In this document: piece by piece, positions 4,814-55,748 of the stretch | Numbering within the stretch: the first letter of the stretch is position 1 | Layout of the letters: every line of letters begins with the position of its first letter | Origin: Colwellia sp. MB02u-6 | GTDB lineage: Bacteria > Pseudomonadota > Gammaproteobacteria > Enterobacterales > Alteromonadaceae | Reading direction: 5' to 3' | Assembly (NCBI RefSeq): GCF_014077095.1 | Contig: NZ_JACGVG010000027.1 | Span: 496,001 to 560,000, forward strand | Length of the DNA: 64,000 nucleotides | The notes under the pieces: generated by a model | What the model saw: only the letters and a program-made list of their open reading frames with translations | Databases searched by the model: none | What the model was told of the DNA's origin: nothing | Translations under genes and position numbers: made by a program

Positions 4814-4827
4814 CTGATGTAGATCAG
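4814..4827. promoter_or_regulatory. FNR-type operator CTGATGTAGATCAG
   Basis: Perfect palindrome CTGAT-N4-ATCAG, the geometry of an FNR/CRP-family site. Its centre is 77 bases before the proposed start of the CoA-ligase gene, so a class II promoter with the site at -41.5 would start transcription near 4862. Confidence 0.65.
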
Positions 4828-4897
4828 TCAAAGCGAACGTAAAAAATCAGATGAACACTATACTTTTTATATCGTTTGCTTGATTGATTTTGCTCGC

Positions 4898-6676
4898 ATG
4901 TCAGAAAATATAATTAATAAGATGTCATATAATAGCCGTGATACAAATTTGCATGATTATCAGCAGACTTGTGATGACTTTAATTGGCAAACAGACATCA
5001 AAAAAACACTTAATATTGCCTATCAAGCCGTTGATAAGCATTTAAATACCAGCATTGAAAACAAAGTAGCACTTCGCTGGCTTGGTAAAGATGAAAAATT
5101 AATTGATTATAGTTACCGTGATTTAGCAGAACAAACCAGCCTTTTTGCTAGTGTGTTAGCTAAGCTAGGTTTTGAACCAGGCGTACGGGTATTTAGCTTA
5201 GTGGGGCGATTACCGCTACTGTATATTTCAGCACTAGGTACGTTAAAGTTTGGCGGCGTTTTTACCCCCTTATTCTCTGCCTTTGGCCCTGAGCCTATAC
5301 GTTCTCGCATGGCGATAGGCGAGGTTAATGTATTAGTTACCACTAAGCGTTTATATGATAAAAAAATTGCCACTTGGTGGCAAGAACTGCCTCATCTTAA
5401 AGTCATTCTATTCATCGATAGTCCTGAACATGAAAACATTTCAGCTGCCTCTTCTCATACCTTAGACAAAGGCTGTCATTGGTTAACCATACTGCTTACT
5501 GATGCTGACACAAGATATCCCTGTGCTAAAACTCATGGTGATGACATGGCTTTGCTGCACTTTACCAGCGGTACAACGGGTCAACCTAAAGGTGTTATTC
5601 ATGTGCATCAAGCGGTGGTTGCCCATCAATCTTCGGCAAAGTACGCCTTAAACTTAAAACAAGACGATATTTATTGGTGCACTGCTGATCCTGGCTGGGT
5701 GACGGGTACCTCGTACGGCATTATTGCGCCACTTTGTTTGGGCGTGACAATGATTGTTGATGAAGCTGAATTTGAAGTTGAGCGTTGGTATAACATTTTA
5801 CAGCAACAAAAAATAACCATTTGGTATACCGCGCCAACCGCGATTCGCATGTTGATGAAAGCAGGATCAGCTATTCGTGAACAATATGATTTATCCGCGT
5901 TAACCTTCATCGCGAGTGTTGGTGAACCTTTGAATGCTGAAGCCGTACGATGGAGTGAAAAAGTACTGGGTTTACCTTTTCATGACAACTGGTGGCAAAC
6001 AGAAACTGGCGCCATCATGATTGCTAATTTTGCCAGTCAGTCAATAAAACCCGGTTCAATGGGCTTACCCTTACCAGGCATTACGGCCGCTATTGTTAAG
6101 CGTAATGAACAAGGGAACATTGAAACAATAGAGGAAGCTATGCAAATTGGTGAGCTGGCATTAAAACAAGGCTGGCCTTCAATGTTCCGCGGCTATTTGC
6201 ATCGTGAAGAAAAATATCAACAGTGCTTTCAAGACGGTTGGTATTTAACTGGCGATCTCGCTAAGCGAGACGCACAAGGCTATTACTGGTTTGTAGGTCG
6301 GGCTGATGATTTGATCAAATCATCAGGTCATTTAATTGGACCATTTGAAATTGAAAGTGCCTTGATGGAGCATGAAGCTGTCGCTGAGGTGGGTGTTATT
6401 GGTATTCCTGACGAAATTACCGGGCAAAGGGTTAAAGCCTATGTGACGTTAAATCCTGATGTCGAATGCAGTGAGCACAACTTAGCCGCATTACAAAAAG
6501 AGCTAAAAGGTTTTGCTCGTAAAAAATTAGGCGCGGCAGTTGCACCTAAGGAAATAGTTTTTCGAAAAAATTTACCTAAAACTCGCAGTGGTAAAATAAT
6601 GCGGCACTTATTAAAGGCACGTGAACTCAATTTACCCGAAGGTGATATTTCCACCTTAGAAAGTGATGAACAGTAA
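4898..6676 (+). CDS. acetyl-CoA synthetase-like AMP-forming acyl-CoA synthetase
   Basis: About 592 residues of the ANL adenylate-forming family, which activates a carboxylic acid (probably acetate or another short acid) to its CoA thioester through an acyl-AMP. The P-loop [15 protein letters not shown], the WWQTETG motif, TGDLAKRD, the hinge and the catalytic-Lys motif [12 protein letters not shown] are present. The last is also the usual acetylation control site. The start is uncertain: ATG 4898 or ATG 4922, neither with a good ribosome site; TTG 4880 seems less likely. First gene of an apparent operon running to PEP synthase, behind an FNR-type palindrome. Substrate choice between acetate and propionate cannot be decided from sequence. 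Confidence 0.85.
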
Positions 6677-6713
6677 TGTTCAATAAGAAGGTAATGAAAA
6701 AGAGTAATAAAAA

Positions 6714-7727
6714 ATGAATGATAAATTACATCTTGATAAAGCGCACTTACTTGAACAATTAAAGCAAATGTTACGCATTCGTCTTTTTGAAGAAAAATGC
6801 GCTGAGCTTTATGCACAAGAGAAAATACGAGGTTTTCTTCATCTTTATATTGGCGAAGAAGCCGTAGGCGTGATGGCGGCGCTTTCCCCAGAAGATAACA
6901 TTGTGGCCACTTATCGTGAACACGGTCACGCGCTTGCGCGTGGTTTATCAATGCAGTCTGTGATGGCTGAAATGTATGGTCGCACAAATGGTTGCAGTAA
7001 AGGGCGTGGCGGCTCTATGCACCTATTTGATAAAAAACAGCACTTTTATGGTGGCAATGCCATTGTTGGAGGTGGTTTGCCTTTGGCCACAGGTTTAGCT
7101 ATGGCCAATAAGCAACTGAAAAAATCAGCGATAGCCGTGTGTTTTTTTGGTGAAGGAGCCGTGGCAGAAGGTGAGTTTCATGAAGTAATGAATCTTGCCG
7201 TGTTATGGCAATTACCTATACTATTTATTTGTGAAAACAATGGTTATGCCATGGGTACGGCATTGGCCTTATCTGAATCAGAAACCAATATTGCCAAAAA
7301 AGCACACAGTTATGGCATGCCAGCGTGGCAAGTCGACGGTATGAATGTGGTCAACGTGGAAGCGGCAACGACTAAAGCCGTTCAGTACGTTAGAAGTCAT
7401 CAACAACCTTATTTTTTAGAGTGTCAGACTTATCGTTTTCGAGGGCATTCAAGCTTTGATGGCCAGTTATACCGTGATAAAGCAGAAATAGAACAGTGGA
7501 AAAAGCATGGCCCTGTAAAGCAATTAAAGCACTGGTTGATACAAAATCACCAGCTCAGTGATAATGACTTTAACCGCATTGAATCACAAATTAAACAAGA
7601 GATAATCGAAGCCATTAACTTTGCCGAGCAAGGACAATGGGAGCCGGTTGAAGATCTTTGTAAAGATGTTTATAGCCCAGCAACACCGAAAATAAATACC
7701 AAGGCAGAACAAGGAGGCTTGGCATGA
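6714..7727 (+). CDS. pdhA: pyruvate/2-oxo acid dehydrogenase E1 component, alpha subunit
   Basis: 337-residue thiamine-diphosphate subunit of a heterotetrameric E1. Family motifs: [26 protein letters not shown], the [10 protein letters not shown] loop that contacts E2/E1 phospho-sites in relatives, and the ThDP/Mg motif [17 protein letters not shown] through ENNG. The reaction is decarboxylation of a 2-oxo acid and transfer of the acyl group to lipoyl-E2. Similarity is to pyruvate and acetoin types; acetoin cannot be excluded. Gammaproteobacteria usually make pyruvate dehydrogenase with a one-chain AceE, so this is likely a second, accessory complex. It overlaps the beta gene by four bases (ATGA). 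Confidence 0.9.
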
Positions 7728-8725
7728 AGGTTCAAACAAACAGTAGTGAAAAGATGACTTACCGTGAAGCCTTACGTGCGGGTATTGAACAATGCCTAAA
7801 CGACGATGAACGTACATTTTTAATGGGTGAAGACGTTGGGCGTTATGGTGGCTGTTATGGCGTAAGTAAAGGCTTGTTTGAACATTATGGCGCAGAGCGA
7901 ATTATTGATACGCCGCTATGCGAATCAGGTTTTGTCGGGGTAGGTATCGGCGCTGCGTTAGGGGGGATGAGGCCGATAGTAGAGGTGATGACCGTTAATT
8001 TTAGTTTGTTGGCAATGGATCAAATTGTTAATAGCGCCGCCACGTTACGCCATATGTCAGGTGGTCAACTTAATGTTCCCGTTGTTATTCGCATGGCTTG
8101 TGGTGCTGGCTTACAACTGGCCGCGCAACATTCTCATAGCTGGGAAAATTTATACGCCCATATTCCTGGTTTAAAAGTATTAAGCCCAGCAACACATAAC
8201 GATGCCCGTTATATGCTATCACAAGCAATACAAGACCCTGATCCTGTGCTTATTTTTGAACATGTCATGCTATTAAATAATCAAGGTGAGGTCTTTAATG
8301 CACCAGACGCTGATATGGAAAAAGCCGTAGTGCGTAAGCAAGGTACAGATATTACCCTGATCACCTATGGGGGCAGCTTACCTAAAGTTTTAATGGCCGC
8401 CTGTGCGCTTGAGGCATTGAATATTAATGTCGAGGTTGTTGACTTACGTTGTTTGCGACCATTAGATAACCACACTATTTTAGCCAGTGTTAAGAAAACA
8501 CACCGCGCTATTATTATTGATGAAGGCTGGAAAACCGGCAGTTTAGCAGGTGAAATCAGCGCTATTATTATGGAGCAAGCTTTTTGGTATTTAGATGCGC
8601 CAGTACAGCGAGTTTGTACTCAAGAAGTGCCTATTCCTTACCCAAGTCACCTCGAACAAGCGGCTTTACCTCAGGTAGAACAAATCATCCGTTGTGCAAC
8701 AATTTTATTTGCAGGTGAACAATAA
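7724..8725 (+). CDS. pdhB: pyruvate/2-oxo acid dehydrogenase E1 component, beta subunit
   Basis: 333-residue transketolase-like beta subunit pairing with the preceding alpha. Motifs: [38 protein letters not shown], the glutamate-containing VEVMTVNF, and the C-terminal [10 protein letters not shown] / [10 protein letters not shown] strong ribosome site AGGAGG lies seven bases before the ATG, inside the end of the alpha gene; the ATGA overlap suggests translational coupling. Co-location with E2 supports assembly of one 2-oxo acid dehydrogenase complex. No E3 (dihydrolipoamide dehydrogenase) gene is in the operon, so E3 must be borrowed from elsewhere. Confidence 0.9.
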
Positions 8726-8775
8726 CGCTGCGCTTTAACGTTCAGCAGGTAATGTAAAATAGAGGAAAGGCAAGC

Positions 8776-10092
8776 ATGAAAAAATCCATAGACATTACTA
8801 TGCCATCACTGGGGGCAGATATGAGCGAGGGCATGTTGGTCGAGTGGTTAGTCAAGGTAGGTAATAAGGTAAAACATGGCGATGTTATTGCCGTGCTTGA
8901 AACACAAAAGGGTGCTATTGACATGGAAGCCTACTACGACGGCATTATTACCGAGTTATTAGTTCAACCGGTAAACACTGTCCCTGTCGGTAGCGTATTG
9001 GCAAGGATGGACATCGAAGAAAAGTCACTAAATGAATCGAAAAATCAAAACACCAGCACTGAAAACATCATCAAAGAACCAATAACTACTGAAGAAATAA
9101 TTGATGAAAAAATAACACCTGAAAAAATAAAACCCAAGCAAATAATTGATGAGCCGGTTTTATTATCGGCAGCAGCCTTGACAGAAAAAACGTTAATAAA
9201 ACCGCAAAAAAAATCGACTGAAAAGCTAAACATCAATATCAAAACTAATAGTAATAACAAAACCAATAGGGTACTTGCTTCGCCCATTGTTCGTAAAATA
9301 GCAAAAGCACAGCAGCTAGATTTGTCGAGGATTAAAGGCAGTGGTCCTAATGGTGGCATCATACTAAAAGATATTACGCAGATAGCACCCAAAACACGGT
9401 TAACTGTGGGCGAGCCATTAACAAATATGCGCAGCGCAATCGGGGCTGCCATGACCAAATCTAAGCAAGAAATCCCCCATTTTTATCTGAGTGTAGACCT
9501 GCCTATAAACAAGGCGCAGCAATGGCTGCAACAAGCCAATAAAGACAAAACACCCCAAACACATATTTTACTTATTGCACTAGTACTTAAAGCGGTTGCT
9601 ATAAGCTTACAAAAATATCCGCAATTAAATGGCTTTTACCAACAAGATCATTTTGAGCCAGCAAGTGAAATCAATATTGCCAATGTCATTAGTTTACGAG
9701 GTGGTGGGGTAGTTGTACCTGCATTGCGCCATGTAGAACAGTTATCGGTACTCGAAATTATGTCTGCTTTGCGTGATATCACGCGTCGAAGTCGAGCGAT
9801 TGAACGTGGTGAGCGTTTACGTAGCTCAGAACTGATGGGCGCTACAATTACCATAACCAATATGGGCGAGCGTGGTGTTGATCAAGTTTTTGGCATTATT
9901 TATCCGCCACAAGTCGCTATTATCGGTGTTGGTAACGTAAAAGAAGTGCCACAAGTGTGCGATGAAAAAATTGATATTGGTGAGCAAATAACGCTTTGTT
10001 TAAGTGCCGATCACCGAGTAGTTGATGGCATGCTCGCGGCTAAGTTTTTAAATAGCTTAGCTAAAAATTTACAAAAACCGGAACAATTATGA
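8776..10092 (+). CDS. pdhC: dihydrolipoamide acyltransferase, E2 component
   Basis: 438 residues in the usual E2 order: one N-terminal lipoyl domain (about 3-80) with lipoyl Lys45 in ETQKGAID (relatives mostly have ETDKA), a Lys/Glu/Thr-rich flexible linker (about 85-160), a peripheral-subunit-binding domain (ASPIVRKIAKAQQLDLSRIKGSGPNGGI), and a catalytic domain with the HxxxD motif as DHRVVDG near the C-terminus. It passes the acyl group from E1 to CoA. AGGAAAGG precedes the ATG. The stop overlaps the next start (ATGA), coupling E2 with the acyl carrier protein. Confidence 0.92.
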   Translation: MKKSIDITMPSLGADMSEGMLVEWLVKVGNKVKHGDVIAVLETQKGAIDMEAYYDGIITELLVQPVNTVPVGSVLARMDIEEKSLNESKNQNTSTENIIKEPITTEEIIDEKITPEKIKPKQIIDEPVLLSAAALTEKTLIKPQKKSTEKLNINIKTNSNNKTNRVLASPIVRKIAKAQQLDLSRIKGSGPNGGIILKDITQIAPKTRLTVGEPLTNMRSAIGAAMTKSKQEIPHFYLSVDLPINKAQQWLQQANKDKTPQTHILLIALVLKAVAISLQKYPQLNGFYQQDHFEPASEINIANVISLRGGGVVVPALRHVEQLSVLEIMSALRDITRRSRAIERGERLRSSELMGATITITNMGERGVDQVFGIIYPPQVAIIGVGNVKEVPQVCDEKIDIGEQITLCLSADHRVVDGMLAAKFLNSLAKNLQKPEQL

Positions 10093-10334
10093 ATGCAACA
10101 GAAATCGAGCACTTGATTATTGAGGCTATACAGGAAGTTGCGCCTGAAGTTGATAAAAACACCATTGATTTTGATGAAGATATCCGTGAAGAGTGTGATT
10201 TAGACTCAATGGACTTTATTAATTATTTAGCGGCGTTGCAAAAATCAACGGGAATAAAAATTATTGAGGCTGATTACCCTAAATTTCATAGTATTAATAG
10301 TGCGTTAGCTTTTCTTAACGACAAGAAAAGCTGA
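10089..10334 (+). CDS. acyl carrier protein (phosphopantetheine-binding)
   Basis: 81-residue four-helix acyl carrier protein. The expected phosphopantetheine site is Ser40 in CDLDSMDFINY, where the usual DSL is DSM. Acidic overall, with conserved spacing to the C-terminal helix. It overlaps the E2 gene by four bases, so it is made together with the dehydrogenase complex and not with fatty-acid genes. No acyltransferase or ketosynthase adjoins it. A role as dedicated octanoyl/lipoyl or acyl donor to E2 would fit but is inference. The housekeeping AcpP is expected elsewhere. Confidence 0.85.
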   Translation: MNATEIEHLIIEAIQEVAPEVDKNTIDFDEDIREECDLDSMDFINYLAALQKSTGIKIIEADYPKFHSINSALAFLNDKKS

Positions 10335-10388
10335 GTTTATAGTCGGTAATCTCGAGTGGATAATGTCGAGCGGATAAAGGTGATAAAT

Positions 10389-12902
10389 ATGCAATCAAAA
10401 CAACAAGCGCAAACTATTTTTTGGTTTGAGCAATTAACGCTCGCCAACCTCGAGCAAGTGGGTGGAAAAAATGCCAGTTTAGGCGAAATGATAGCCAATA
10501 TGAGTGAAACAGCTGTGCAGGTACCTATTGGTTTTGCGACCAGCGCGCAATTATTTGTCGATTTTTTACAACAAAATAAGCTCAATGAAAAAATAAAACA
10601 TCATATTGATGCCTATGGTTCAGCACAACAAAACTTGGCCACTACCGGCAGTGCGATCAGAAAGTTAATTGCTCATGGTGACTTTACCGAGCAGCAAAAC
10701 AATGAAATTACCCAAGCCTATCAAGAATTATCAAAGAGAATACAAGAAAATCAACACGACAAACTTAATCAAAATGACTTAGTAAACCAAGCCCCCTATA
10801 TGGCCAGTGTTGCGGTAAGAAGTTCGGCTACCGCTGAAGATTTACCCGAAGCAAGCTTTGCCGGACAACAAGAGAGTTACTTAAACGTTATCGGTATTGA
10901 ACATTTACTGATCGCCTGTAAACAATGTTTTGCTTCGCTTTATACCGACAGAGCCATTGTTTATCGGGAAAAACAAGGCTTTGAACATGAGAAAGTCGCC
11001 TTGTCGATTGGTATTCAACAAATGATTAATGCTCAAGCAGCAGGGGTGATGTTCACGCTTGATACCGAAACAGGCTTTAGTGATGTTGTTGAAATCAATG
11101 GCGCATGGGGATTAGGCGAAACAATAGTAAAAGGCAGCGTTACGCCAGATAGATTTATGGTTTTTAAGCCATTGTTAGCACAAAATATAGAAGTTACCGC
11201 TAGTGAGCAACAGCACAAGTTTAGACCTATTATTGAAAAAAAATGTGGCAGCAAATTAGAGAAAATGTGCTTTGCCCATGCGGATAAATCAAAAAATATC
11301 CATATCAGTAAAGTAGCAGCAAGTACTGAAACGCTAGCAACCAGTATTGAAGAACGTACCAGCTTAGTTTTATCTGATGATGAAATACTGCAACTGGCAA
11401 GCTGGGCGGTAATAATCGAGAAACATTACGGCAAAGCCATGGATATGGAATGGGCAAAAGATAGTGGTTCAGGGCAGCTTTACATCGTTCAGGCCCGTCC
11501 TGAAACAGTAGAATCACAGAAAAATCATTCGGTATTAGTCAATTATAAACTGAAAGAAAAATCAAAAATACTTGTGCAAGGTGCCAGTGTTGGCAGTGCT
11601 ATTGCTACGGGTAAGGTGTTTAAAGTCGTTAACCCTGAAGATGTTGAACATTTTCCTGAAGGCGCTATGTTAGTGACTCAAAAAACTGATCCTGACTGGT
11701 TACCTTTAATGCGTAAAGCGGCAGGTATTATTACCGATACGGGTGGACCAACAAGTCATGCAGCGATTGTTAGTCGTGAGCTAAAAATTGCCGCGATTGT
11801 TGGCTGTGAAAATGCCACCCAAGTGCTAAAAAATGATCAAGAAGTTACCTTAAGTTGCGCCCAAGGCACACTCGGTATTGTTTATGAAGGCAGATTAGCT
11901 TTTGAAACTGAAGAGGTAAATTTAGCTGACATACCTCACACAAACACAGATATTATGATCAATGCCGCGATGCCCGATGGTGTTTTTAAATGGAGCGCTT
12001 TGCCGGTTGCGGGGATAGGTTTAACCCGCATAGAGTTTATTATTTCCAGTCAAATAGGGGTGCATCCTATGGCGTTATTACACCCTGAAAAAGTGACCAA
12101 TAGTAAAGTTAAACAAAAAATTAGCGAATTATGCCGTGGCTATGCACAAGGTGGAGATTATTTTGTTGATAATCTTGCGCTAGGGGTCGCTAAAATTGCC
12201 GCTTCACAGTACCCAAAGCCTGTCATTGTGCGCATGTCAGACTTTAAATCTAACGAATACCGTGGTTTATTGGGCGGGGAGTTTTTTGAACTGACCGAAG
12301 AAAATCCTATGCTAGGTTTACGTGGGGCCTCACGGTATTACCATAAACTTTATCGCGAAGCTTTTATGTTGGAATGTCAGGCGATTGTTAAAGTGCGAGA
12401 GCAAATGGGGTTTGATAATGTCATCGTGATGATCCCATTTTGTCGCACACCTGATGAAGCAGATAAAGTGCTTGCTGTGATGAGTGAAGTGGGGTTAACG
12501 CGTGGCAAAAAGGGCTTGCAGGTTTATGTTATGTGTGAAATACCGTCTAATATTATTCTAGCAGCAGAGTTTGCTCAGCGTTTTGATGGTTTCTCTATTG
12601 GCAGCAATGATTTAACTCAACTTGTTTTAGGTATAGACCGTGATTCAACTGAGTTAAAAAGCTTATTTGATGCGAGGAATGATGCGGTTAAAAGTATGAT
12701 TGCACAAGTGATAAAAGTCGCTCATGAGTGTGGTTGCAAAGTAGGGATTTGCGGACAAGCCCCTTCGGACCATCCTGAATTTGCCGAGTTTTTAGTGGCA
12801 TGCGGTATTGATTCTATTTCATTGAACCCTGACTCAGTTGCTAAGGCTAGCGTACATATTGCCTTAGCAGAAAACACGATAAATAAGCAAAAAAATCTTT
12901 AA
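10389..12902 (+). CDS. ppsA: phosphoenolpyruvate synthase
   Basis: About 837 residues, slightly longer than the usual ~790. Converts pyruvate, ATP and water to PEP, AMP and phosphate. N-terminal ATP-grasp-like domain (VGGKNASLGEM, then SVAVRSSATAEDLPEASFAGQQESYL), phospho-His domain with the swivelling His near residue 457 in TGGPTSHAAIVSRE, and C-terminal PEP/pyruvate barrel (IGSNDLTQLVLGIDRDS, then VGICGQAPSDHPEFAEF). The start ATG 10389 has AAGGTGA six bases upstream; GTG 10356 is less likely. Last gene of the CoA-ligase/dehydrogenase operon; its stop lies only three bases from the stop of the converging gene. Confidence 0.93.
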   Translation: MQSKQQAQTIFWFEQLTLANLEQVGGKNASLGEMIANMSETAVQVPIGFATSAQLFVDFLQQNKLNEKIKHHIDAYGSAQQNLATTGSAIRKLIAHGDFTEQQNNEITQAYQELSKRIQENQHDKLNQNDLVNQAPYMASVAVRSSATAEDLPEASFAGQQESYLNVIGIEHLLIACKQCFASLYTDRAIVYREKQGFEHEKVALSIGIQQMINAQAAGVMFTLDTETGFSDVVEINGAWGLGETIVKGSVTPDRFMVFKPLLAQNIEVTASEQQHKFRPIIEKKCGSKLEKMCFAHADKSKNIHISKVAASTETLATSIEERTSLVLSDDEILQLASWAVIIEKHYGKAMDMEWAKDSGSGQLYIVQARPETVESQKNHSVLVNYKLKEKSKILVQGASVGSAIATGKVFKVVNPEDVEHFPEGAMLVTQKTDPDWLPLMRKAAGIITDTGGPTSHAAIVSRELKIAAIVGCENATQVLKNDQEVTLSCAQGTLGIVYEGRLAFETEEVNLADIPHTNTDIMINAAMPDGVFKWSALPVAGIGLTRIEFIISSQIGVHPMALLHPEKVTNSKVKQKISELCRGYAQGGDYFVDNLALGVAKIAASQYPKPVIVRMSDFKSNEYRGLLGGEFFELTEENPMLGLRGASRYYHKLYREAFMLECQAIVKVREQMGFDNVIVMIPFCRTPDEADKVLAVMSEVGLTRGKKGLQVYVMCEIPSNIILAAEFAQRFDGFSIGSNDLTQLVLGIDRDSTELKSLFDARNDAVKSMIAQVIKVAHECGCKVGICGQAPSDHPEFAEFLVACGIDSISLNPDSVAKASVHIALAENTINKQKNL

Positions 12903-12905
12903 TGA

Positions 12906-13862
12906 TTAATGTGCTTTGAGTTGCTGTAAAGCCTGCCAGCTAAAGGTTGGGCCACTTTTACAAACATATTGATGCTTGATGTAACAATGGCCACATAAAC
13001 CAACGGCGCAATGCATGCGTCGTTCAACTGCAAGGAAAATGGCATTACTTGCCATGCCATGCTCAGTCAAATAAGTGGCGGCACTACTCATCATCAGCTC
13101 TGGGCCACAAAGCAGCGCCGTTGTGGGTGGGCGAGTAAAAGTGCTCAGCGCTGTGGGTAATATCATTAAAGGGCTACCTTGAAACGTAGTTGCACATAAT
13201 TCATCACTAGTATTAGCATTGGTATTAGCATTGGTATTAGCACGGATATTGTCATTGATATTACTACTAGGATGTTCATCAATGGCATCAAGAGTATTAA
13301 ATATCTTGATCTGCTTTTGCCAACGCGCACGTTCTGGGGTTAACATCTGCGCGGCTTTATTACGAGCACCATAGACTAAGGTGAGTTGCTGTTTATTTTT
13401 GGCTTTATCAGCTAGAGCATCAGTTGGTTTGTCAGGTGAGTTGTTAGTTAGTTTGTCAATTAAAGTCACTAAAGGCGCTAATCCGCAGCCACCAGCAATA
13501 ATTATCGTATTATGATTAACAATTTTATCCAGCGGCCAGCCACGACCAAAAGGGCCTCGCGCACCAAGAATAGCGCCGGGTTGCATGGAGAATAAAGTTG
13601 AGGTGACTTGCCCCATTTGTCGAATAAAAGCTTTAAACTCACCTCGTTCATTGGGTGGTTCGGTAAAGGTGAAGGGGGCTTCGCCTATGCTAGGGACATT
13701 GAGCATAAAAAACTGTCCTGGTTGTACTTGTTGCCAATGATGTGGATGATTTTTATTTTTACTTTGTGCTAAATTTAACAGCCGAAACAAATAATGACGT
13801 GCCTGCTCACCATCATCAATGTAATCCACTAACTCAATACAATCAGGAATATGACTAAGCAT
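12906..13862 (-). CDS. FAD/NAD(P)-binding oxidoreductase with 2Fe-2S site (HydG/AsrB-like gamma subunit)
   Basis: 318-residue ferredoxin-NADP reductase-fold protein resembling the gamma subunit of sulfhydrogenase and anaerobic sulfite reductase B. An N-terminal FAD domain (VQPGQFFMLNVPSIGEAPFTF), an NAD(P)-binding part (IIIAGGCGLAPLVTLI) and a C-terminal cluster CAVGLCGHC...C for a 2Fe-2S centre can be seen. Between them is an odd low-complexity insert NTNANTNANTSDE, encoded by a short tandem repeat near 13205-13245. Last gene of a three-gene operon with the formate dehydrogenase; presumably it hands electrons from formate to NAD(P)+ or the reverse. Confidence 0.8.
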   Translation of the reverse strand: MLSHIPDCIELVDYIDDGEQARHYLFRLLNLAQSKNKNHPHHWQQVQPGQFFMLNVPSIGEAPFTFTEPPNERGEFKAFIRQMGQVTSTLFSMQPGAILGARGPFGRGWPLDKIVNHNTIIIAGGCGLAPLVTLIDKLTNNSPDKPTDALADKAKNKQQLTLVYGARNKAAQMLTPERARWQKQIKIFNTLDAIDEHPSSNINDNIRANTNANTNANTSDELCATTFQGSPLMILPTALSTFTRPPTTALLCGPELMMSSAATYLTEHGMASNAIFLAVERRMHCAVGLCGHCYIKHQYVCKSGPTFSWQALQQLKAH

Positions 13863-44889: not shown

Positions 44890-44894
44890 TAGCG

Positions 44895-46296: not shown

Positions 46297-46353
46297 GCTG
46301 TATTCCTTATCATAAAACTTAGCTTCCATAGATTTAGCACTGAGTAGCTAAAG

Positions 46354-47419: not shown

Positions 47420-47433
47420 CTGATCTATCTCAG
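47420..47433. promoter_or_regulatory. imperfect FNR-type site CTGATCTATCTCAG
   Basis: One change from the island palindrome; its centre is 118 bases before the cytochrome c start, giving a predicted leader of about 77 bases. Confidence 0.45.
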
Positions 47434-47544
47434 CTGCTTGTTAGAAAAATTAGAGGTAAAGCAACCTGTGCATTATTACTTAGATGTTAGGTTTATAAAA
47501 TATTAAACAGTTGTTCTTTTTTGAAGCTGTGTCGAGGAGTTGTT

Positions 47545-48000
47545 ATGAAATATTTACTTTTTTGTTGCTTTACTTTAATCGCTATTAGTTTGAGCAGTTG
47601 TGACTTAGGTCCTGATTCACCCAGAGGCTTTAGTTTGCCAAAAGGTGATGTTGCTAAGGGAGCGATGGTATTAACAAAATACCAATGTTTAGCTTGTCAT
47701 CATATCAATGGTGTGGAACAAGCTGAAGGTATAAACAACCCTGATTTAAATGTACGTTTAGGAGGTAAATTAACCAAAGTAACAACGTATGCGGAACTTG
47801 TGACCAGTGTTATTAATCCTTCACATAAACTTTCTAAAGGTTATGCCCTTACTGCTATTGCTATTGAAGGAAAGTCTAAAATGAGCAATTTCAATGATGT
47901 GATGACCGTAACAGAGTTGGTTGATTTAGTAACATTTTTACAACCTCATTATGAGTTGGTGCCTTATAGAAGAACGGACTATCAGTTTTATCACTATTAA
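47545..48000 (+). CDS. lipoprotein c-type cytochrome, single haem
   Basis: 151 residues. The N-terminus MKYLLFCCFTLIAISLSSC is a lipoprotein signal with lipobox LSSC. One haem motif, CLACHH, follows at about residue 52; a Met in SKMSNFNDVMT could be the sixth ligand. It probably carries electrons at the periplasmic face of a membrane. ATG 47545 has GAGGAG six bases upstream; ATG 47521 overlaps no such site. It is followed 30 bases later by a universal stress gene, likely cotranscribed. Confidence 0.88.
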   Translation: MKYLLFCCFTLIAISLSSCDLGPDSPRGFSLPKGDVAKGAMVLTKYQCLACHHINGVEQAEGINNPDLNVRLGGKLTKVTTYAELVTSVINPSHKLSKGYALTAIAIEGKSKMSNFNDVMTVTELVDLVTFLQPHYELVPYRRTDYQFYHY

Positions 48001-48030
48001 AAATACAGGTGTTTAAAAAAGGTAAATAAT

Positions 48031-48468
48031 ATGCATAAACTTTTATATTTAGTCGGCGTTGACGGCAGCGAGTGGAGTAACAGAGCTGTTGAACGAGCGA
48101 TTCATCTGGCACAAAAAACTGGTGCGAGTGTTAAATTAGTGTATGTGATTACTTGGCAAGAATTTCAGCCAATGATGATTGAGGGGGTTGCGCCACCTCC
48201 GCTTGATAAAAAACAAATAGAGCATGATGTGAATGAAAAAATTTTACAACCTTTGGTTGAAAAATTTAAAGCAGAAAAGGTTGATTTGAGCAATGAATAT
48301 ATCTGGGGTGAGCCTGTTGACGCATTACTTCAACAGGTAAATGATTATCACGTTAATATGCTCTTTGTTGGTCGGCGAGGTCGATCGCGCTTTGCTGATA
48401 TATTACTGGGTAGTGTGGCGAATAAACTTGCACATTGTATTGGTGTGCCTATTGTTTTGGTTCCATAG
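48031..48468 (+). CDS. universal stress protein, single domain
   Basis: 145-residue UspA-fold protein (YLVGVDGSEWSNRAVERAIHLAQKTGASVKLVYV) with the ATP-type C-terminal motif FVGRRGRSRFADILLGSVANKLAHCIGVPIVLVP. A paralogue of the Usp at 23412, to which it aligns over the whole length. Its TAG stop lies inside the first unit of a 9-base tandem repeat. Confidence 0.93.
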   Translation: MHKLLYLVGVDGSEWSNRAVERAIHLAQKTGASVKLVYVITWQEFQPMMIEGVAPPPLDKKQIEHDVNEKILQPLVEKFKAEKVDLSNEYIWGEPVDALLQQVNDYHVNMLFVGRRGRSRFADILLGSVANKLAHCIGVPIVLVP

Positions 48469-48505
48469 TTCCATAGTTCCATAGTTCCATAGTTCCATAA
48501 GTCCT
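48461..48505 (+). repeat. 9-bp tandem repeat TTCCATAGT, about five copies
   Basis: The repeat starts in the last two codons of the Usp gene. Every unit contains the in-frame stop, so gain or loss of units leaves the protein unchanged. The rest of the gap to 48762 shows nothing recognisable. Confidence 0.85.
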
Positions 48506-48762
48506 AATCTCTTGAGCTTTAATAAAGATAAATTTTTAGCTAATAACAACATGCAAAAAGATTAAGCTTTTAATCGTGTGTTTTTATTGTTGATAACTCA
48601 AGGTAATAAACTAATATCAAAATAGACTATCATCTTTTACTTCTCGGTATTAGGGTTTAAGTGCGCAAAATATTATCTCGACAGACGGGGTGAAATTAAC
48701 CAGTCACTGCAGGTATATGTCCTGTGAGAAAAAATAATTTTAATTATAGTTACAGTTAAAAT

Positions 48763-49959
48763 TTATTCAGCACGTAAGGCAAGTACAGGTTCAAGTTTAG
48801 CGGCTTTACTTGCCGGTTGCCAACCCGCTAAAGCGCCAATAATGATCGAAATGGCTAATGCTATTATTAACACTACTGGCTCAAAGACTACAGGCATGGT
48901 TGGCATAACTAATTGTGCAATAAACAATAAAGTCATTGAGGCGATATAACCTAAAATACCACTGGTTAATGCAATAATAATGGCTTCACCCAGAAAAAAA
49001 TAACGTATGTGAGTGGATGAAAAACCTAGTGCTCGAAGCAAGCCTATTTCTTGACTACGTTCGGTAACCGTAATAGTTAAAATAGTAATAATACCAACGG
49101 CGCCAACAAGCAACTAAATTATACCTAACCCTGCTGCCGCGTATTTAACGAAGCGTAAAATGTCATCTAAGCTTTTTAGCATGTCGTCTTGGCTGACTAG
49201 GGTGAAATCTTCACTATGATGACGGGCAATTAACAATTGACTGACTTGTTGGCTAAATGTAGCTGTGGCTATATTTTCATGATAGAAAATGTCTATTTCC
49301 ATCACACTATTACGATTAAATAAGCGTAAGGCCTTTGCCGTTGGAATGTAAACCATATCATCTAAATCTACACCGATAAATTCTCCTTTTTTTTTGAGCA
49401 CACCTATGACTCTATAGCTGTGGCTGCCGACATGAATTTTTTCGCCAATAGCATTATTGTTAGAAAATAACTCTTGTTTTAAGGTCGCGCCTAAGACAGC
49501 AAAAGCACGTGGTGTTAATATATCATCAGGGGGTAAAAACTTGCCTTGGGCTAGCGTTAACTGCCAAGCGTTTAAAGCGGAAGCCGTAATACCGGCAACA
49601 TCAGTATAGCGTCCCCGTTGATACCATTTAATTTGAGCTGTCCCCATGACTACCGGAACAACATATTTTGCGGCGGGCAAACGTTCTAGACTGATGGCAT
49701 CATCAAGTGAAAGTGGCCTTACGGTATTGAGTAATCCACCGACACCAAAGGTTTCGGTTTTACCAGGGGTAACCGCAATAATATGACTACCAAACTGGGT
49801 GAATTCTTGTAAAATATATTGCCGTAAACTCTCGCCTATGGCATTGAGTAAGATCACCGCAGAAATACCGACACTAAAACCAAATATGGTTAATAATGTT
49901 CGCCTTTTTTGTGCATTTACTGCGCGATAAAGCCAAGATAAATAATCTGTTAGTCTCAT
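48763..49959 (-). pseudogene. MacB-type ABC permease interrupted by in-frame TAG
   Basis: The frame from ATG 49959 to TAA 48763 is continuous (398 codons) except for TAG at 49114-49116. Before it are the first membrane helix and the periplasmic MacB-core-like domain; after it the last three helices (LLVGAVGIITILTITVTERSQEIGLLRALG). The stop falls where the intact sister permease and family members have Ser (AISLIVAG), so TCG to TAG is a plausible single change. Without readthrough the product loses three of four helices. Five bases after the sister permease gene, in the same operon. Confidence 0.8.
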
Positions 49960-49964
49960 TTATC

Positions 49965-51167
49965 TTAACCCCTCAAAGCCAATATAGGATCAACGGCTGC
50001 CGCTTTATTAGCGGGTAACCAACTAAACAATAATGCCACGATAAAAGACATAAATATTGCAGCGATTGTAGACCACCAAGGTATGGCTAGTGGTATTTTT
50101 GGGAAGTTAGTCTGGATAATAAAGACGAGACTATAAGAGAGTATCAAGCCTGCGAGCGAACCAAAGCTTGTGATAACTAAAGAAGATATAATAAAAATTT
50201 GACGTACCTCACGGGCACTGGCACCCAGTGATTTTAACAGCCCAATTTCTTCTCGTCGTTGTGAAACGCTAATATAACTGACATTCATGATTAATATACC
50301 GGCAACAATTAAACTGATTGCGGCAATAGCACCAATACTGGCGGTAACAGCAACAATAATTTTATTGAAAGCACTTAACATGGCATCTTGACTGATAATC
50401 GTAATATCGGCTTCGCCATCGTGCCGCTGAGCAATAATTTTATTAATGTTAACTCGGGTATTTATTTCAAAATCAGTTTGTTTTAATTGTAGTAAAATAC
50501 GAAATAAGGCGGGTGAATCAAACAACACTTGTGCTGAGCGTACAGGAATAATAGCCATGTCTTGCAGGTCTAACCCTAATGACTCACCACGTGCTTTCAA
50601 TAAACCAATAACACGGTATTTATATTCACCAATACGCAGCCATTGTCCCATTGGAGAGCTTTTTTTAAACAGTTCTTTCGCTAATTTTGCACCTAAAATA
50701 CAAACGGGAGTCGCGCGAGTTTCGCTATTTTCAGGCAACATTCTACCTTGTTTAACCGTTAAATTACGCACCGTAAACATGTCTCTATTGGTGCCGAGAA
50801 TAATAATGTCACGCGACAATGATTGATTCGACACGCTGGCAGTACCGGCAATAATAGGGGCAACATGGCTTATTGAAGGGATTTTTTTCAGTGCTTGGGC
50901 ATCTTCGATGGTTAAATCACGAGGACTGGTGCCATAAAGTGGCGGGGCAGAGCCGGTGGTTTCTTTTTTGCCGGGCAAAACAATTAACATTTTTGACCCT
51001 AAGGCGGAAAACTCTTGTTCGATGTATAAGCGTGCACCTTCTCCTATACTAGTTAGTAATAACACTGATGATACCCCCATGCCAATGGCAAGTAATACCA
51101 TTGTACTACGCAAACGATGACGAGCTAAAGCTTGGTAGCTGAACAGCCAGTGATCCGCTAAGTTCAT
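49965..51167 (-). CDS. MacB/FtsX-type ABC transporter permease
   Basis: 400 residues: N-terminal helix, large periplasmic domain (TIEDAQALKKIPSISHVAPII, then GQWLRIGEYKYRVIGLLKARG), and three C-terminal helices with the family motif VSQRREEIGLLKSLGASAREV. Works with the ATPase upstream and the HlyD adaptor to move a substrate (peptide, lipid or macrolide type) across the envelope. It overlaps the ATPase gene by four bases. With its sister interrupted, it would have to function as a homodimer. Confidence 0.9.
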   Translation of the reverse strand: MNLADHWLFSYQALARHRLRSTMVLLAIGMGVSSVLLLTSIGEGARLYIEQEFSALGSKMLIVLPGKKETTGSAPPLYGTSPRDLTIEDAQALKKIPSISHVAPIIAGTASVSNQSLSRDIIILGTNRDMFTVRNLTVKQGRMLPENSETRATPVCILGAKLAKELFKKSSPMGQWLRIGEYKYRVIGLLKARGESLGLDLQDMAIIPVRSAQVLFDSPALFRILLQLKQTDFEINTRVNINKIIAQRHDGEADITIISQDAMLSAFNKIIVAVTASIGAIAAISLIVAGILIMNVSYISVSQRREEIGLLKSLGASAREVRQIFIISSLVITSFGSLAGLILSYSLVFIIQTNFPKIPLAIPWWSTIAAIFMSFIVALLFSWLPANKAAAVDPILALRG

Positions 51168-51898
51168 GAGCTTGACCCAAGTTGCTGATATGGCTTAGTT
51201 GTGTTTATTGGTAATCCCGTATCAGAAACAATAACGCCATCTACCATATTAAGTTGTCGTTGTGCGCGATTACCTAAAGCAATATCGTGAGTCACGACTA
51301 ACAAGGTGATGCCATTACGGTTATAACGCTCTAAAATATCGGTAACTTCTTGGCCTGAACTTTGATCTAAATTGCCAGTAGGTTCATCGGCAAGCAAGAT
51401 AGTGGGTTCGGTAATTAATGCCCTAGCAATGCCAACCCGCTGTAATTGTCCGCCAGATAATTGCTTAGGTAATTGCCTAAGATGATTACCTAGGCCGAGC
51501 TCAGATAATAACTTACTGGCTCTTTCTTGACGTGATTTGGCTTTTACACCAGCTAACATCAGGGGTAATTCAACATTCTCTAATGCGGTTAATCTTGGGA
51601 TTAAATGAAACGATTGAAAAACAAAACCGATATACTTTCGTCTCAGCAAGGCCCGCTGCTCTTCGGTTAGCAACTCAGTGTTTTCACCTTGTAGTTGATA
51701 CTGACCACTATCGGGTCTATCGAGTAAACCGATCATATTGAGTAAGGTTGATTTGCCTGAGCCGGAAGGGCCCATCAATGATAAGTACTCGCCTTGTTTA
51801 ATGTTAAGTTTAATATTTTGCAATGCGTGTAGTGGTTGTTCACCCACTTGATAGGTTTTATTCATATGACTGATGTTGATAATAGCGTTATCAGTCAT
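51164..51898 (-). CDS. MacB-type ABC transporter ATPase
   Basis: 244 residues. Walker A GPSGSGKSTLL, Q-loop FVFQSFHLIPRLTALENVELPL, signature LSGGQLQRVGIARAL, Walker B ILLADEPTGNLD, H-loop VTHD. This belongs to the LolD/MacB/FtsE group. It overlaps the HlyD gene by eight bases and the permease by four, showing one tight operon. Confidence 0.93.
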   Translation of the reverse strand: MTDNAIINISHMNKTYQVGEQPLHALQNIKLNIKQGEYLSLMGPSGSGKSTLLNMIGLLDRPDSGQYQLQGENTELLTEEQRALLRRKYIGFVFQSFHLIPRLTALENVELPLMLAGVKAKSRQERASKLLSELGLGNHLRQLPKQLSGGQLQRVGIARALITEPTILLADEPTGNLDQSSGQEVTDILERYNRNGITLLVVTHDIALGNRAQRQLNMVDGVIVSDTGLPINTTKPYQQLGSSS

Positions 51899-53078
51899 GG
51901 GTTTTATGCTCTGCTGATTTATCTTGCTTGAGGTTTTTTTTTAATTCTTGTGTAGATATGGCAGGTAATCCTGCACGAATATTCGCTATATTTGCGGCAT
52001 TAACGATCACTTTTTCTGATTTTGTTAAACCTTCAGTTACTTCACTAAACTGCCAGTTCGTAAGACCTAAGCTGATTTTTCTTTTCTCTATTTTGCCATT
52101 ATTATTGAGAATATAAATGCTGTTGTTGTCAATAATAGCGTCGGTTGGCACGCGCAAATTTTTGCTTGCACTCGCTAAAATTATATCCACATCAACACTA
52201 TAACCGGCTAACAGAGCAGGTAGGCTTTGAGTGGTATCAAAAGAAATCTCTATATCTACGGTACGGGCTTGTTTGGCGTAGTCTTGAACATAAGCCGCTA
52301 TGCGTTTTACTTTACCCATAAACATTTGTCCGCGAAATGCATCTAGGGTAATTCGAACGGGCATACCTAAAGATATTTTTCCTGCGTCAACTTCATCAAT
52401 GGGCGCAGTAACATAGTGGCAATCAGTGGTGAGTAAATCAATGGCAGGTGGTGTTGGTACACCCGGTGGTGACGGCGTACTAAATTCGCCCACTTCTCCT
52501 GATATTTCACCAACAGTGCCATCAAATGGGGCGACCAAATAAGTTTTTTCAATAATTGCTTGTGCTTGCGCTAACATAGCTTTTGTTTGTTGCCAGCTAG
52601 CCTTAGCTGAAGTGCAAGCCGCCTTGCTAGCGTGAGCTTTGGCTTGGGCAAGATCAAATAGTCCTTGAGATGCTAAATTTTTAGTGACTAAATTGCTCAG
52701 ACGCAAAGCTTCACGTTGATCTGATTGATGGATGATACACAAACTTTGCTGGCTAAAGTCAGCGGCTGTGACACCAGCTTTGGCCGAGTCTACTTGTGCT
52801 TTTAGATCTTTATTCCACAAGTTAAGCAAAATGTCGCCGCGTGTAACTTGCTGTCCTTCCTTGACATTAATTGCCGCTATTTGTCCTCCAACAGCAAGGG
52901 CTAACTTTGAGCGTTGGCAAGCCGTTATAGCACCTGCCCGGGTATTAACAACAGTTGTTTCAGTTAAACCAATATCAACATCGGTTATTTCAACGGTGAG
53001 GATGTCAGACTTATTTAGCTGCCAAATAAGTAGGCCAGCAGCAATAAGTAACATAACTAAGCTTATTTTTTTTATCAT
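51891..53078 (-). CDS. HlyD/MacA-type periplasmic adaptor of the ABC exporter
   Basis: 395 residues with an N-terminal membrane anchor (ISLVMLLIAAGLLIWQL), a lipoyl/barrel-sandwich part (AAINVKEGQQVTRGDILLNLW, later LVAPFDGTVGEISGEVGEF), an intervening helical hairpin, and beta-barrel domains. It joins the inner-membrane ABC unit to an outer-membrane channel, which is not encoded here. GAGGA lies five bases before the ATG. First gene of the exporter operon. Confidence 0.9.
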   Translation of the reverse strand: MIKKISLVMLLIAAGLLIWQLNKSDILTVEITDVDIGLTETTVVNTRAGAITACQRSKLALAVGGQIAAINVKEGQQVTRGDILLNLWNKDLKAQVDSAKAGVTAADFSQQSLCIIHQSDQREALRLSNLVTKNLASQGLFDLAQAKAHASKAACTSAKASWQQTKAMLAQAQAIIEKTYLVAPFDGTVGEISGEVGEFSTPSPPGVPTPPAIDLLTTDCHYVTAPIDEVDAGKISLGMPVRITLDAFRGQMFMGKVKRIAAYVQDYAKQARTVDIEISFDTTQSLPALLAGYSVDVDIILASASKNLRVPTDAIIDNNSIYILNNNGKIEKRKISLGLTNWQFSEVTEGLTKSEKVIVNAANIANIRAGLPAISTQELKKNLKQDKSAEHKTHD

Positions 53079-53466
53079 AATGTCCTCTAAGATATTATGC
53101 CGCTAAATAAGTAAAAAGTAGATTTTCTATCTACAAATTTAATCCAATCAACTGTATCTTGATAGCGCTTGGCTGTCGGAATTAAATAATGATCAATATT
53201 AACCAGTACACAACTAGTATGATTCAAAAAACATACTGCCTGCTGTGTTTTAGATCAAGTTTATAGGCGTATAAAATAAGTTGCTTTACGAACAATATAC
53301 GGCCAATTAGTTGCTGTTTAGTGGTTTTTATTAGCTGTTTAATAGACAGTTTACTGTTTCAATATTATGGTTTAGAAGCTAATGTTATTACGGAGAGTTA
53401 ACCCCTTGTTATAAGAGATTAACGTTAATATTATAATAATGAGTAAAGATAATAGCCTGTGTTTTT
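53079..53466 (-). promoter_or_regulatory. 388-base gap upstream of the exporter operon
   Basis: AT-rich; must hold the adaptor promoter. Only a half-site (ATCAA within TTAGATCAAG near 53252) resembles an FNR-type operator. No gene is seen. Confidence 0.3.
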
Positions 53467-54252
53467 CTATTGTCCTTTGGTTGTTTTGTCTGTTGATTTA
53501 AGAAGACCGCTGATCAACTCCATGGGTAAAGGGAAAATAATAGTAGAATTTTTCTCGCCAGCAATTTCTGTTAAGGTTTGTAAATAACGTAGCATGATCG
53601 CATCAGGCTCTTTGGCCAGTTGATTGGCAGCTTGGGTCAGGTGAGTTGACGCTTCTAATTCCCCTCTAGCATGAATAACTTTGGCTCGACGAGTTCTTTC
53701 TGCTTCCGCTTGTCTGGCAATAGCGCGGATCATAGTTTCATTTAAATCAACGTGTTTAATTTCAACATTAGATACTTTTATACCCCAACTGTCGGTTCTG
53801 ACATCTAAAATGGTTTGTATATCAGCATTTAACATGTCTCGATTTGCGAGCATTTCGTCTAATTCATGTTGGCCTAACACCGAACGTAAGGTGGTTTGTG
53901 CAAGTTGAGACGTTGCCTGTAAATAGTCTTCGACATTGATAATCGCTTTTTGTGGGTCAATAACTCGAAAATAAATAACCGCATTAACTTTTACTGAGAC
54001 ATTATCGCGGCTGATAACGTCTTGGCTGGGTACATCCATCACCACGATACGTAAATCGACTTTTACCATTTGTTGGATAAAGGGAATAACAAGAATAAAA
54101 CCAGGCCCTTTCACTTTATAAAATCGTCCAAGTAAAAAAATCACCCCACGCTCATATTCTCGTAAAATTCTAAAAGCACTGAAAAAAAAGGCAATAAGTA
54201 AAAATATAATTGAGCCGGTGAATAATTCTGAATTATTAAATAGTGAAGTCAT
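53467..54252 (-). CDS. SPFH/stomatin-like membrane protein (slipin)
   Basis: 261 residues: N-terminal hydrophobic hairpin ([15 protein letters not shown]), then the band-7 domain ([63 protein letters not shown]), and a helical tail rich in Ala/Glu ([23 protein letters not shown]). Forms oligomeric membrane scaffolds. It overlaps the NfeD gene by 17 bases; NfeD-slipin pairs are conserved across bacteria and archaea and act in membrane quality control. Confidence 0.93.
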
Positions 54253-55660
54253 TATCTTGCTCCTTAGTTGTTGTGTTTATTGTGGGCGCTAAAACAAGGG
54301 TTAGGCCATTAATTGCTTGCACTTTTACTTGTTGACTTTTTTTTAAGGCCAGCGGACTACTAGCCGCCCAACGCTCGCCATTAAACAGCACATAACCCTT
54401 TTCAGTGAAGTCATTTTCCACCGTAACCCAAGCATTAATTATTTCTTCTTGGCCACTGACGATTTTATTTTTTCGTGCTCGGTAGATAAAACCCAAGGCA
54501 AAGACAATAAAGAGTGCAGAGACAAAAGCAAAACTGGCAATTAATGGCAGTGAAATTTTAAATTGCTCAAGCTTAGTGTCGAATAAAAATATCGAGCCTA
54601 AAACAAATGCGCCAATACCGCCGAGGCCAAAAATACCAAAGCTTGGTATCAGTGATTCCATCACCATGAGTGTTACGCCTAACAATAGCAGGGCAACACC
54701 CGCAAAATTCAGGGGTAATAACTGCAGGGCATATAAAGCGATAAGTAATGATATACCGCCGACAATGCCGGCTATGCCTACACCAGGACTATAGAATTCT
54801 AATAACAAACCATAAATACCCAGTAGCATTAAAATATAGGCAATATTAGGGTCGGTAATGGTGGCAATAAATTGGCTACGCCAGTCTGGTTTTTTGCTTA
54901 GTATTTCAGCGCCTTGTAAGGATAACTTAATGTTTTGCTGTTTTATCGCTACCCGCTGACCCTCTAGTTTATTTAATAACACTTGTGGCGACTGAGCGAT
55001 TAAGGTGATGACATTTTCTTTTAGTGCTTCTTTCGCTGTTAATGTTGCCGCTTCTGTAACGGCTTTTTCAGCCCATAGTTCATTACGAGAACGTAATTGT
55101 GCGAGTGAACGAATATAGGCAATGGCATCATTTAATACCTTGTTCTCCATCGCAGAAGGTACGTTTTTTTGTGTTTTATCTTCTGCTGGTGGCGTCATTG
55201 GCCCCGTAATATTAACTGGTGTCGCAGCGCCCAGAGTGGTGGCGGGAGCCATGGCAGCAATATGACAAGCATAAAGTATGTAAGTACCTGCACTCGCTGC
55301 GCGTGCTCCTTGTGGATAAACTAAACAGGCGATTGGAATAGTAGAATTTAAAATACTCTTATTAATGTCACGTAGGCTAGCACTTAAGCCACCTGGAGTA
55401 TCGAGTGTGATAATAATTAAAGGAATGTTATTGGCCATATTAGCGCTGTTTATTTCTCGCACTAAATAGTCACTGACGGCAGGCCCGATAGCACCTTTGA
55501 TGGTCAATAGCGGCACAACTAAAGTGTTTGCGTTAATACTTATCTCTTGCTGAAGGCTATTGGCTACTGGCTTTAAATACGGTGTTTCTGCTGTTCCTAA
55601 GGCATGCATTGAGAGCAAAGCACAATATAAAACCAAGAATATTCTGCACAATTTACACAT
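54236..55660 (-). CDS. NfeD membrane serine protease (long form)
   Basis: About 474 residues. Signal peptide ([22 protein letters not shown]), a ClpP-like protease domain at about 40-230 with [14 protein letters not shown] and the Ser nucleophile in [14 protein letters not shown], four to five membrane spans (about 270-390), and the C-terminal NfeD OB-fold. It cleaves membrane-associated substrates, often partner slipins. ATG 55660 has GGAA seven bases upstream; ATG 55672 precedes that site. An FNR-type palindrome is 75 bases upstream. Confidence 0.9.
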
Positions 55661-55734
55661 AACAGATTCCATTAATCACTGAATTATGAGTTTAGTTGTA
55701 CTTGGTCAATATCTCTAACTTGTGTTGGGAAATG

Positions 55735-55748
55735 CTGATAAAGATCAG
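55735..55748. promoter_or_regulatory. FNR-type operator CTGATAAAGATCAG
   Basis: Perfect palindrome upstream of the NfeD-slipin operon, with the centre about 81 bases from the NfeD start, giving a predicted leader near 40 bases. It is the last copy of the series and marks the right end of the island. Confidence 0.68.

Follow-up and report, generated by a model that had tools for sequence, protein, structure and literature searches.

The window analysed here is a 64-kb stretch of the 4.01-Mb genome of Colwellia sp. MB02u-6, and the subject of this work is a block of about 51 kb that lies in it between ybaB and dsbA and contains a gene for an FNR-type regulator (hereafter the island FNR). Most of the promoters of the block carry a palindrome, CTGAY-N4-RTCAG, which is the FNR box with C in place of T at its outer position, and the same pairing of regulator and box recurs in a rearranged homologous block of another genus. 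We consider it quite probable that the block is a portable low-oxygen and energy-stress regulon equipped with its own regulator–operator pair. An earlier reading of the same DNA (the original prediction) had described a single regulon gathered at one locus. Three findings go beyond it: the box is not the usual FNR box, the block has been inserted between ybaB and dsbA, and the genome has a second FNR, of the canonical type, together with 45 ordinary boxes outside the window. Its list of the genes of the island proved right in kind. The features are given below; G012 is a sister genome that carries the block and G1213 is a genome of another genus of the same family.

about 4597..55919: the entire block, inserted at the ybaB-dsbA junction, on the evidence of that junction in other Colwellia and of the block in G012
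4880..6676 (+): acetate--CoA ligase (acs), above the cut-off of NF003313
6714..10092 (+): pyruvate dehydrogenase E1 alpha, E1 beta and an E2-type acyltransferase, the E2 under its equivalog cut-offs
10356..12902 (+): phosphoenolpyruvate (PEP) synthase (ppsA), above cut-off
12906..17089 (-): formate dehydrogenase alpha and two sulfhydrogenase/sulfite-reductase-like electron-transfer subunits, both subunits under equivalog cut-offs
17141..18025 (+): FocA-type formate channel, below cut-off; judging by the operator position, its true start is probably downstream of the listed ATG
18532..18960 (+): TerB-domain protein
19181..21973 (-): P-type cation ATPase; its true start is probably about residue 35, as the -10-like hexamer is found downstream of the listed ATG
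22057..23136 (+): Zn-dependent alcohol-dehydrogenase-family protein
23412..23846 (+): universal stress protein (Usp) 1 (usp1), a weak UspE match, 55.9% identical to the sole matching usp of G1213
24377..25102 (+): GDSL-type lipase/acylhydrolase
25466..26167 (+): island FNR-type regulator, 233 aa; Ser195, with which the recognition motif SETVSR begins, has its codon at 26048-26050
26865..27875 (+): double Usp-domain protein (usp2)
27875..36391 (+): giant cyclic-glucan-synthase-like protein, 2838 aa, with GH94 and glucoamylase domains and no NCBIfam match
37679..42060 (-): two-component system of a CheB-CheR-PAS-histidine kinase and a NarL/GacA-like response regulator (LuxR/NarL-type, 41392-42060)
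42424..44889 (+): Lon protease
45376..46329 (-): helix-hairpin-helix protein resembling the PolX N-terminus
46575..47039 (-): Hsp20-type small heat-shock protein
47521..48468 (+): c-type cytochrome and universal stress protein 3 (usp3)
53467..55672 (-): NfeD and slipin/Band 7

Insertion of the block and its homologue in another genus

The neighbourhoods of ybaB were compared in 14 other Colwellia genomes. The distance between ybaB and dsbA is less than 1 kb in 8 of the 14 and about 1 kb in G008 and G009, other genes lie between them in G003 (2.9 kb) and G005 (13.4 kb), and in G016 ybaB has different neighbours. G012 carries the block, with six of the seven aligned pieces at 90–95% DNA identity and one at 86%. 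Present (in the window genome, G000, and in G012) or absent at a fixed junction in close relatives, the block behaves as a genomic island. In G011 (L105), pieces of nfeD and slipin (77–94% identity) lie between ybaB and kas3, with no match to dsbA, and these fragments are the probable scar of a deletion of the block. The presence of other cargo at the junction, amounting to 13.4 kb with a 1375-aa protein in G005 (L114) and to two genes in G003 (L108), indicates that the junction may be an insertion hot spot. There are no tRNA genes in the window; no integrase was found among the window proteins searched, a set from which some short open reading frames (ORFs) were left out. A MacAB-like ABC exporter (adaptor, ATPase and permease pieces, 48763-53078) lies in the block without a box of its own; the block of G012 does not have it (at 48.8-53.3 kb), and it is either a later gain in the window genome or a loss in G012.

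The FNR of G1213 is 45% identical to the island FNR, and 22 of the 31 block genes tested (tblastn, E 1e-10) have matches within 50 kb of this genome, at 34–85% protein identity: lon, the two-component pair, the glucan synthase gene, usp2, fnr, the P-type ATPase gene, one usp, the cytochrome c gene, focA, fdh with its two partners, ppsA, the three pdh genes, acs, nfeD, slipin, hsp20 and the PolX-like gene. The order of these genes differs from that in the window. No match to ybaB, dsbA or kas3 was found in 80 kb of G1213; the dehydrogenase, the TerB protein, the GDSL lipase and a 105-aa ORF have no match there either, and the exporter genes have only remote ABC-type matches (23–45%).

A CTGAT palindrome at the block promoters

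A rescan of the window for perfect CTGATN4ATCAG returned exactly the five positions of the original prediction (4814, 17103, 26691, 42274 and 55735), and the site with one change at 21981 likewise lies where it had been placed. The four weaker sites are all present, 26274 and 47420 with one mismatch and 23207 and 47236 with two; 47236 and 47420 are kept in the sister genome G012, as is a further weak site at 23964, whereas no G012 counterpart was found for 26274 and 23207. The predicted operators are as follows, the gap being the number of nucleotides (nt) between the box and a -10-like hexamer, TAnnnT.

4814..4827: CTGATGTAGATCAG, before acs-pdhA-pdhB-E2-ppsA; perfect, kept in G012, 9/10 core bases in G1213; -10-like TATACT at gap 31 instead of 22; G1213 (C58 about 70547) has similar letters at this distance
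17103..17116: CTGATATAAATCAG, between divergent fdhA and focA; perfect, same divergent position and 10/10 core bases in G1213; TAnnnT at gap 22 on neither face
21981..21994: CTGACAAATATCAG, between the divergent P-type ATPase and Zn-dependent dehydrogenase genes; one mismatch, perfect CTGATAAATATCAG in G012; TAnnnT at gap 22 on both faces
23207..23220: GTGATATATGTCAG, weak site before usp1; two mismatches, low confidence
26274..26287: CTGATATTTTTCAG, weak site after fnr, adjoining an apparent terminator hairpin (judged by eye); one mismatch, low confidence
26691..26704: CTGATTATTATCAG, before usp2 and the giant glucan synthase gene; perfect, TATAGT at gap 22; 10/10 core bases and TAnnnT at 22 in G1213 too
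42274..42287: CTGATAAATATCAG, between the divergent response regulator gene and lon; perfect, TAnnnT at gap 22 on both faces, as also in G1213, where 9/10 core bases are kept
47236..47249: CTGATAAATGTCAT, weak operator between hsp20 and cytochrome c/usp3; two mismatches, TAATAT at gap 22 towards hsp20; no counterpart found at the hsp20 promoter of G1213
47420..47433: CTGATCTATCTCAG, before cytochrome c and usp3; one mismatch, CTGATATAGATCAG at the orthologous promoter of G1213
55735..55748: CTGATAAAGATCAG, before nfeD-slipin; perfect, CTGACTTATGTCAG (8/10 core bases) at the orthologous promoter of G1213

On the 3' side of the conserved weak site 23964 there is a short open stretch (about 24040-24210) of about 56 codons, counted from its ATG.

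With up to one mismatch allowed, the window holds 15 sites, compared with a mean of 1.56 and a largest value of 6 in dinucleotide shuffles and with about 3 expected per 64 kb at the density of the genome, which has 186 such sites. The perfect sites of the genome number 15, and the 5 that lie in the block are all intergenic; by simple arithmetic, the probability of 5 out of 15 sites landing in 51 kb is about 1e-6. Nine of the 10 perfect sites outside the block lie inside ORFs and one (L015) lies between tRNA-Leu and tRNA-Gly, and in the 3 kb around each none was found at an evident protein-gene promoter. The original prediction had itself named an even frequency of the palindrome across the genome as an outcome that would refute it, and it came through this test, the outside sites lying mostly in coding DNA. 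The flanks, in which the original prediction had found no site, are not quite without them: one-mismatch sites occur outside the block at 4060 (inside dnaX) and at 58673 (intergenic). The latter, CTGATAGCTATCAA at 58673-58686, has the counterpart CTGATAGCCATCAA in G012.

The usual FNR box, TTGATN4ATCAA, by which FNR target genes are recognised, occurs 45 times in the genome and is found neither in the window, where CTGAT-N4-ATCAG stands instead, nor in the 80 kb of G1213. When NTGA-N6-TCAN sites with complementary outer bases were counted, without presupposing C at the outer position, the intergenic sites of the window block were C..G in 8 cases, G..C in 1 and T..A or A..T in none, and those of the G1213 block were C..G in 10 of 10; among coding sites, C..G accounted for 0 of 8 in the window and 1 of 8 in G1213. 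The gene lists behind these counts were hand-edited from ORF calls, with some starts in the window moved downstream and short overlapping ORFs omitted, including a 104-aa ORF of G1213 that covers site 26233. By the same kind of list, 10 of the 11 CTGAN6TCAG sites in the 80 kb of G1213 are intergenic; 40 Markov sequences gave a mean of 0.6 and at most 4 such sites. At six orthologous promoters of the window and G1213, chosen because both members have a site, identity amounts to 92% over the ten bases of the core and to 32% over the 80 flanking bases; at a seventh, that of hsp20, the site is weak in the window and none was found in G1213.

At class II promoters the FNR box is centred at -41.5, which leaves 22 nt to the -10 element. 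Of the 14 gene-facing sides in the window 6 have a TAnnnT hexamer at gap 22, as do 6 of the 15 in G1213, which makes 22 the commonest of 65 gaps in each of the two (means of 0.63 and 0.69 per gap, with per-gap permutation values of 1.5e-5 and 3e-5, respectively). A box at this distance would have its centre near -41.5, the class II position. The pattern had been spotted by eye in the window before testing, and the window test is therefore exploratory, with G1213 as the independent check. Weak sites 26274 and 23964, to which no faced gene was assigned, were omitted from the window test; in G1213 site 41663 (inside an ORF) was dropped and 63548 (outer mismatch) was added by hand. A perfect box followed by N22-TAnnnT has only 3 matches in the genome, all in the block. 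If one mismatch in the box is tolerated there are 19, of which 14 are outside the block; 8 of these are inside or overlap an ORF of at least 80 aa, and among the remaining 6, L071 is alone in facing a gene at a distance of no more than about 200 nt (mechanical ORFs).

The concentration of the sites in the block, their intergenic placement, the frequent class II spacing and their recurrence at the orthologous promoters of G1213 lend good support to the view that one regulon occupies one locus. The motif is short, and each of 15 Colwellia genomes without a close match to the block FNR (one of them 66% complete) holds 5–16 perfect copies, which might suggest a chance or structural repeat with no regulatory role; such an origin is contradicted by the clustering, the intergenic placement, the fixed spacing and the cross-genus footprint, the G1213 block already counting against it, and we give it next to no credence. 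Chance as the source of the clustering is ruled out by the shuffles and the genome counts.

The island FNR and its relatives

The island FNR matches PF00027, PF13545 and PF00325 above cut-off (a cNMP-binding-like domain and a Crp-type helix-turn-helix) and scores 162.3 bits on the NCBIfam Fnr model NF008365, which is short of the cut-off of 228. The four Fe-S cysteines ascribed to it in the original prediction align with those of canonical FNRs: C12, C15, C21 and C111 are invariant in the five aligned proteins, match FNR of solved structures and fit the pattern C-X2-C-X5-C with a central Cys. The recognition helix keeps E196, S199 and R200 of canonical FNRs, with Ser195 in place of Val, and reads SETVSR rather than VET[IV]SR. 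From Arg180 of CRP and Val208 of FNR, we take position 195 to be the one that reads the outer base of the half-site. Leu195 of FixK2 is reported to touch a thymine of its box (PMC9104804, in the portion available). Compared with FNR of E. coli and Anr of P. aeruginosa, the island FNR is alike in its domains, the four cysteines, the E..SR residues and the class II spacing, and unlike in its Ser for Val before Glu, its CTGAT for TTGAT and its score below the NCBIfam Fnr cut-off.

The second FNR of the genome (C25:112316) is of the canonical type, with VETISR, and is 35% identical to the island FNR. It is improbable, in our judgement, that this host protein also or mainly reads the block boxes and that the block has no private wiring. 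The CTGAT box does differ from the canonical one at the outer base only, both FNRs keep E..SR, and in Colwellia genomes without the island FNR CTGAT palindromes are commoner than a reversed control; such a role is nevertheless hard to reconcile with the contrast between 45 ordinary boxes in the genome and none in the window, with the lack of intergenic T..A sites in both blocks against 8 and 10 of the C..G kind, and with the absence of an evident protein-gene promoter at all 10 outside sites.

Relatives of the island FNR were sought in overlapping sets of 17 genomes of the genus, 395 of the family, 394 of the order, 369 of the class and 398 of the phylum, with E-value limits from 1e-20 to 1e-48. 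The protein is 97% identical to one of Colwellia sp. MB3u-45, and among the matches listed only those of G012 (97%), G1414 (66%) and G1213 (45%) exceed 40% identity; all have SETVSR. The FNR loci read comprise 27 of the V-type and 7 remoter ones, from other Colwellia, with Arg. In a 21-row tree the Ser clade of four SETVSR proteins is split with 100/100 support from 17 V-type proteins. The neighbourhoods (35–40 kb each) of FNR-like proteins with 37–38% identity in G364, G319, G177, G271, G383 and G400 contain no homologous block, and these proteins are all V-type. Among plasmids no FNR relative was found at E 1e-30, and the block kinase matched 254 plasmid records, all at less than 60% identity. 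The seven remoter loci (L035-L041) encode a third FNR-like protein of these Colwellia, about 25-27% identical to the island FNR, with RETLSR, about 8 kb from the canonical fnr; judging by this residue, it should prefer yet another outer base.

The proposed regulon and known systems

Our best reading of the locus, drawn from its sequence, is a self-contained FNR-type regulon with an altered operator and a logic like that of the lxa locus of Burkholderia. Gene context, the geometry of the box and the change in the recognition helix point to the island FNR as the likely binder of the palindrome. As oxygen falls, the island FNR would assemble its Fe-S cluster and dimerise, and the dimer would bind the CTGAT box and recruit RNA polymerase, jointly switching on the enzymes of acetate and pyruvate-to-PEP metabolism, formate transport and oxidation, the ion pump, the Usps, Lon, Hsp20, glucan synthesis and NfeD-slipin. 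Ser195, at the presumed contact with the outer base, would account for C instead of T, and the same change would keep the wiring of the block apart from the host FNR and its TTGAT boxes. We lean, with some reserve, towards the more general view that an FNR subfamily has split from the canonical oxygen regulator through one base-reading residue and makes up, with some ten operators, a portable regulon that is insulated from the host FNR network and that travels, rearranges and can be lost as a unit while the regulator and its operators co-evolve. A second insulating change may be present in the dimer helix, where it would keep the regulator from forming mixed dimers with the host protein.

Several observations weigh against this reading. 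G1414 encodes a Ser-type FNR (C2:80650-81345, L117; 66% identical) beside a different P-type ATPase and near cydAB-looking genes, and the 160 kb read of its 240-kb contig contain no block genes near it, no perfect boxes and 3 CTGAN6TCAG sites, where 0.5 are expected per 80 kb (Markov). The FNR tree has long branches. The dimer-helix Asp discussed for E. coli FNR (PMC5934665, in the portion available) is Gln, His or Glu in the Ser clade, so that oxygen sensitivity may differ and an oxygen response cannot be assumed. Genomes with the block FNR hold 17 (G012) and 15 (window genome) perfect sites, totals that overlap those of genomes without it, and the palindrome is in excess even in the latter, the reversed-pattern control giving 0-3 per Colwellia genome; since whole-genome totals fail to separate the two kinds of genome, only density and placement set the block apart. 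TAnnnT is missing at gap 22 from 8 of the 14 window faces (acs, focA, fdhA, usp1, both cytochrome c faces, nfeD and dsbA). Finally, L071 (G000 C35:54871-54912), a one-mismatch box with gap 22, lies outside the block, before the gene of a small exported-looking protein, and from its sequence may represent a possible extra target.

The block also encodes another candidate for the binder of the palindrome, namely the LuxR/NarL-type response regulator, driven by the CheB-CheR-PAS kinase. The two-component pair is kept with the block in G1213 at 57–64% identity and has a box at its own promoter, and G1414, in the 160 kb read, has the FNR but neither the pair nor enriched sites. The box, however, has exactly the half-site layout of FNR, NTGAT-N4-ATCAN, together with class II spacing, and in the island FNR the changed helix residue is the one that fits. 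The different construction of NarL-type sites also counts against the response regulator, and we regard its binding to the palindrome as unlikely.

The FNR-type regulon that we favour is best compared with lxa of B. cenocepacia, described in the available parts of PMC6127331 and PMC9104464 as a cluster of 50 genes that serves persistence under hypoxia and includes six Usps and an alpha-crystallin heat-shock protein, and as an accessory locus absent from strain H111. Both loci cluster Usps, Hsp20 and energy-metabolism genes, a likeness in the kinds of genes. The suspected regulator of lxa, BCAM0049, lies outside the lxa numbers, whereas the block has its FNR-type gene inside; low-oxygen induction has been demonstrated for lxa and is predicted for the Colwellia block. 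With the DosR regulon of mycobacteria the block shares an analogy only, DosR belonging to a different regulator family from FNR. In that dormancy regulon, as cited in the accessible part of PMC6127331, Usps and alpha-crystallin are under one hypoxia regulator. The FixK2 regulon of Bradyrhizobium (including bll4634-blr4655) is reported in the portion available of PMC9104804 to place Usp, Hsp20, PEP synthase and other genes under CRP/FNR control through a 14-bp palindrome, TTGA/C-N6-T/GCAA as against CTGAT-N4-ATCAG in the block. FixLJ is reported to induce fixK2. The available parts of PMC11841059 and PMC12937710 hold nothing decisive for the regulator–box question, and no report of a CTGAT-type FNR box was found in the literature searched, whose coverage left out most subscription journals. 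The motif strings occur in none of these papers, and the titles and abstract openings on FNR specificity residues, Colwellia FNR and the operators of FNR paralogues showed nothing evident about such a pairing.

Whether a transferred cluster is wired into the global regulators of its host or insulated from them is usually hard to read from sequence. In this case a regulator of its own and a one-letter variant of the operator appear to have come with the block into a host that has an FNR of the ordinary kind and 45 ordinary boxes. Such a system is suited to a simple test of a shift in transcription-factor specificity by one residue and one base, it provides a candidate orthogonal FNR/operator pair, and it carries the concept of lxa-like loci for survival at low oxygen over to marine Colwellia.

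Two minor observations concern the PolX-like gene of G1213 and the DNA after lon in the window. The former (C58, joined 48605-49476) matches in three pieces and is perhaps frameshifted, and the stretch 44947-45133 after lon matches three places in G012, representing a small repeat or a duplication.

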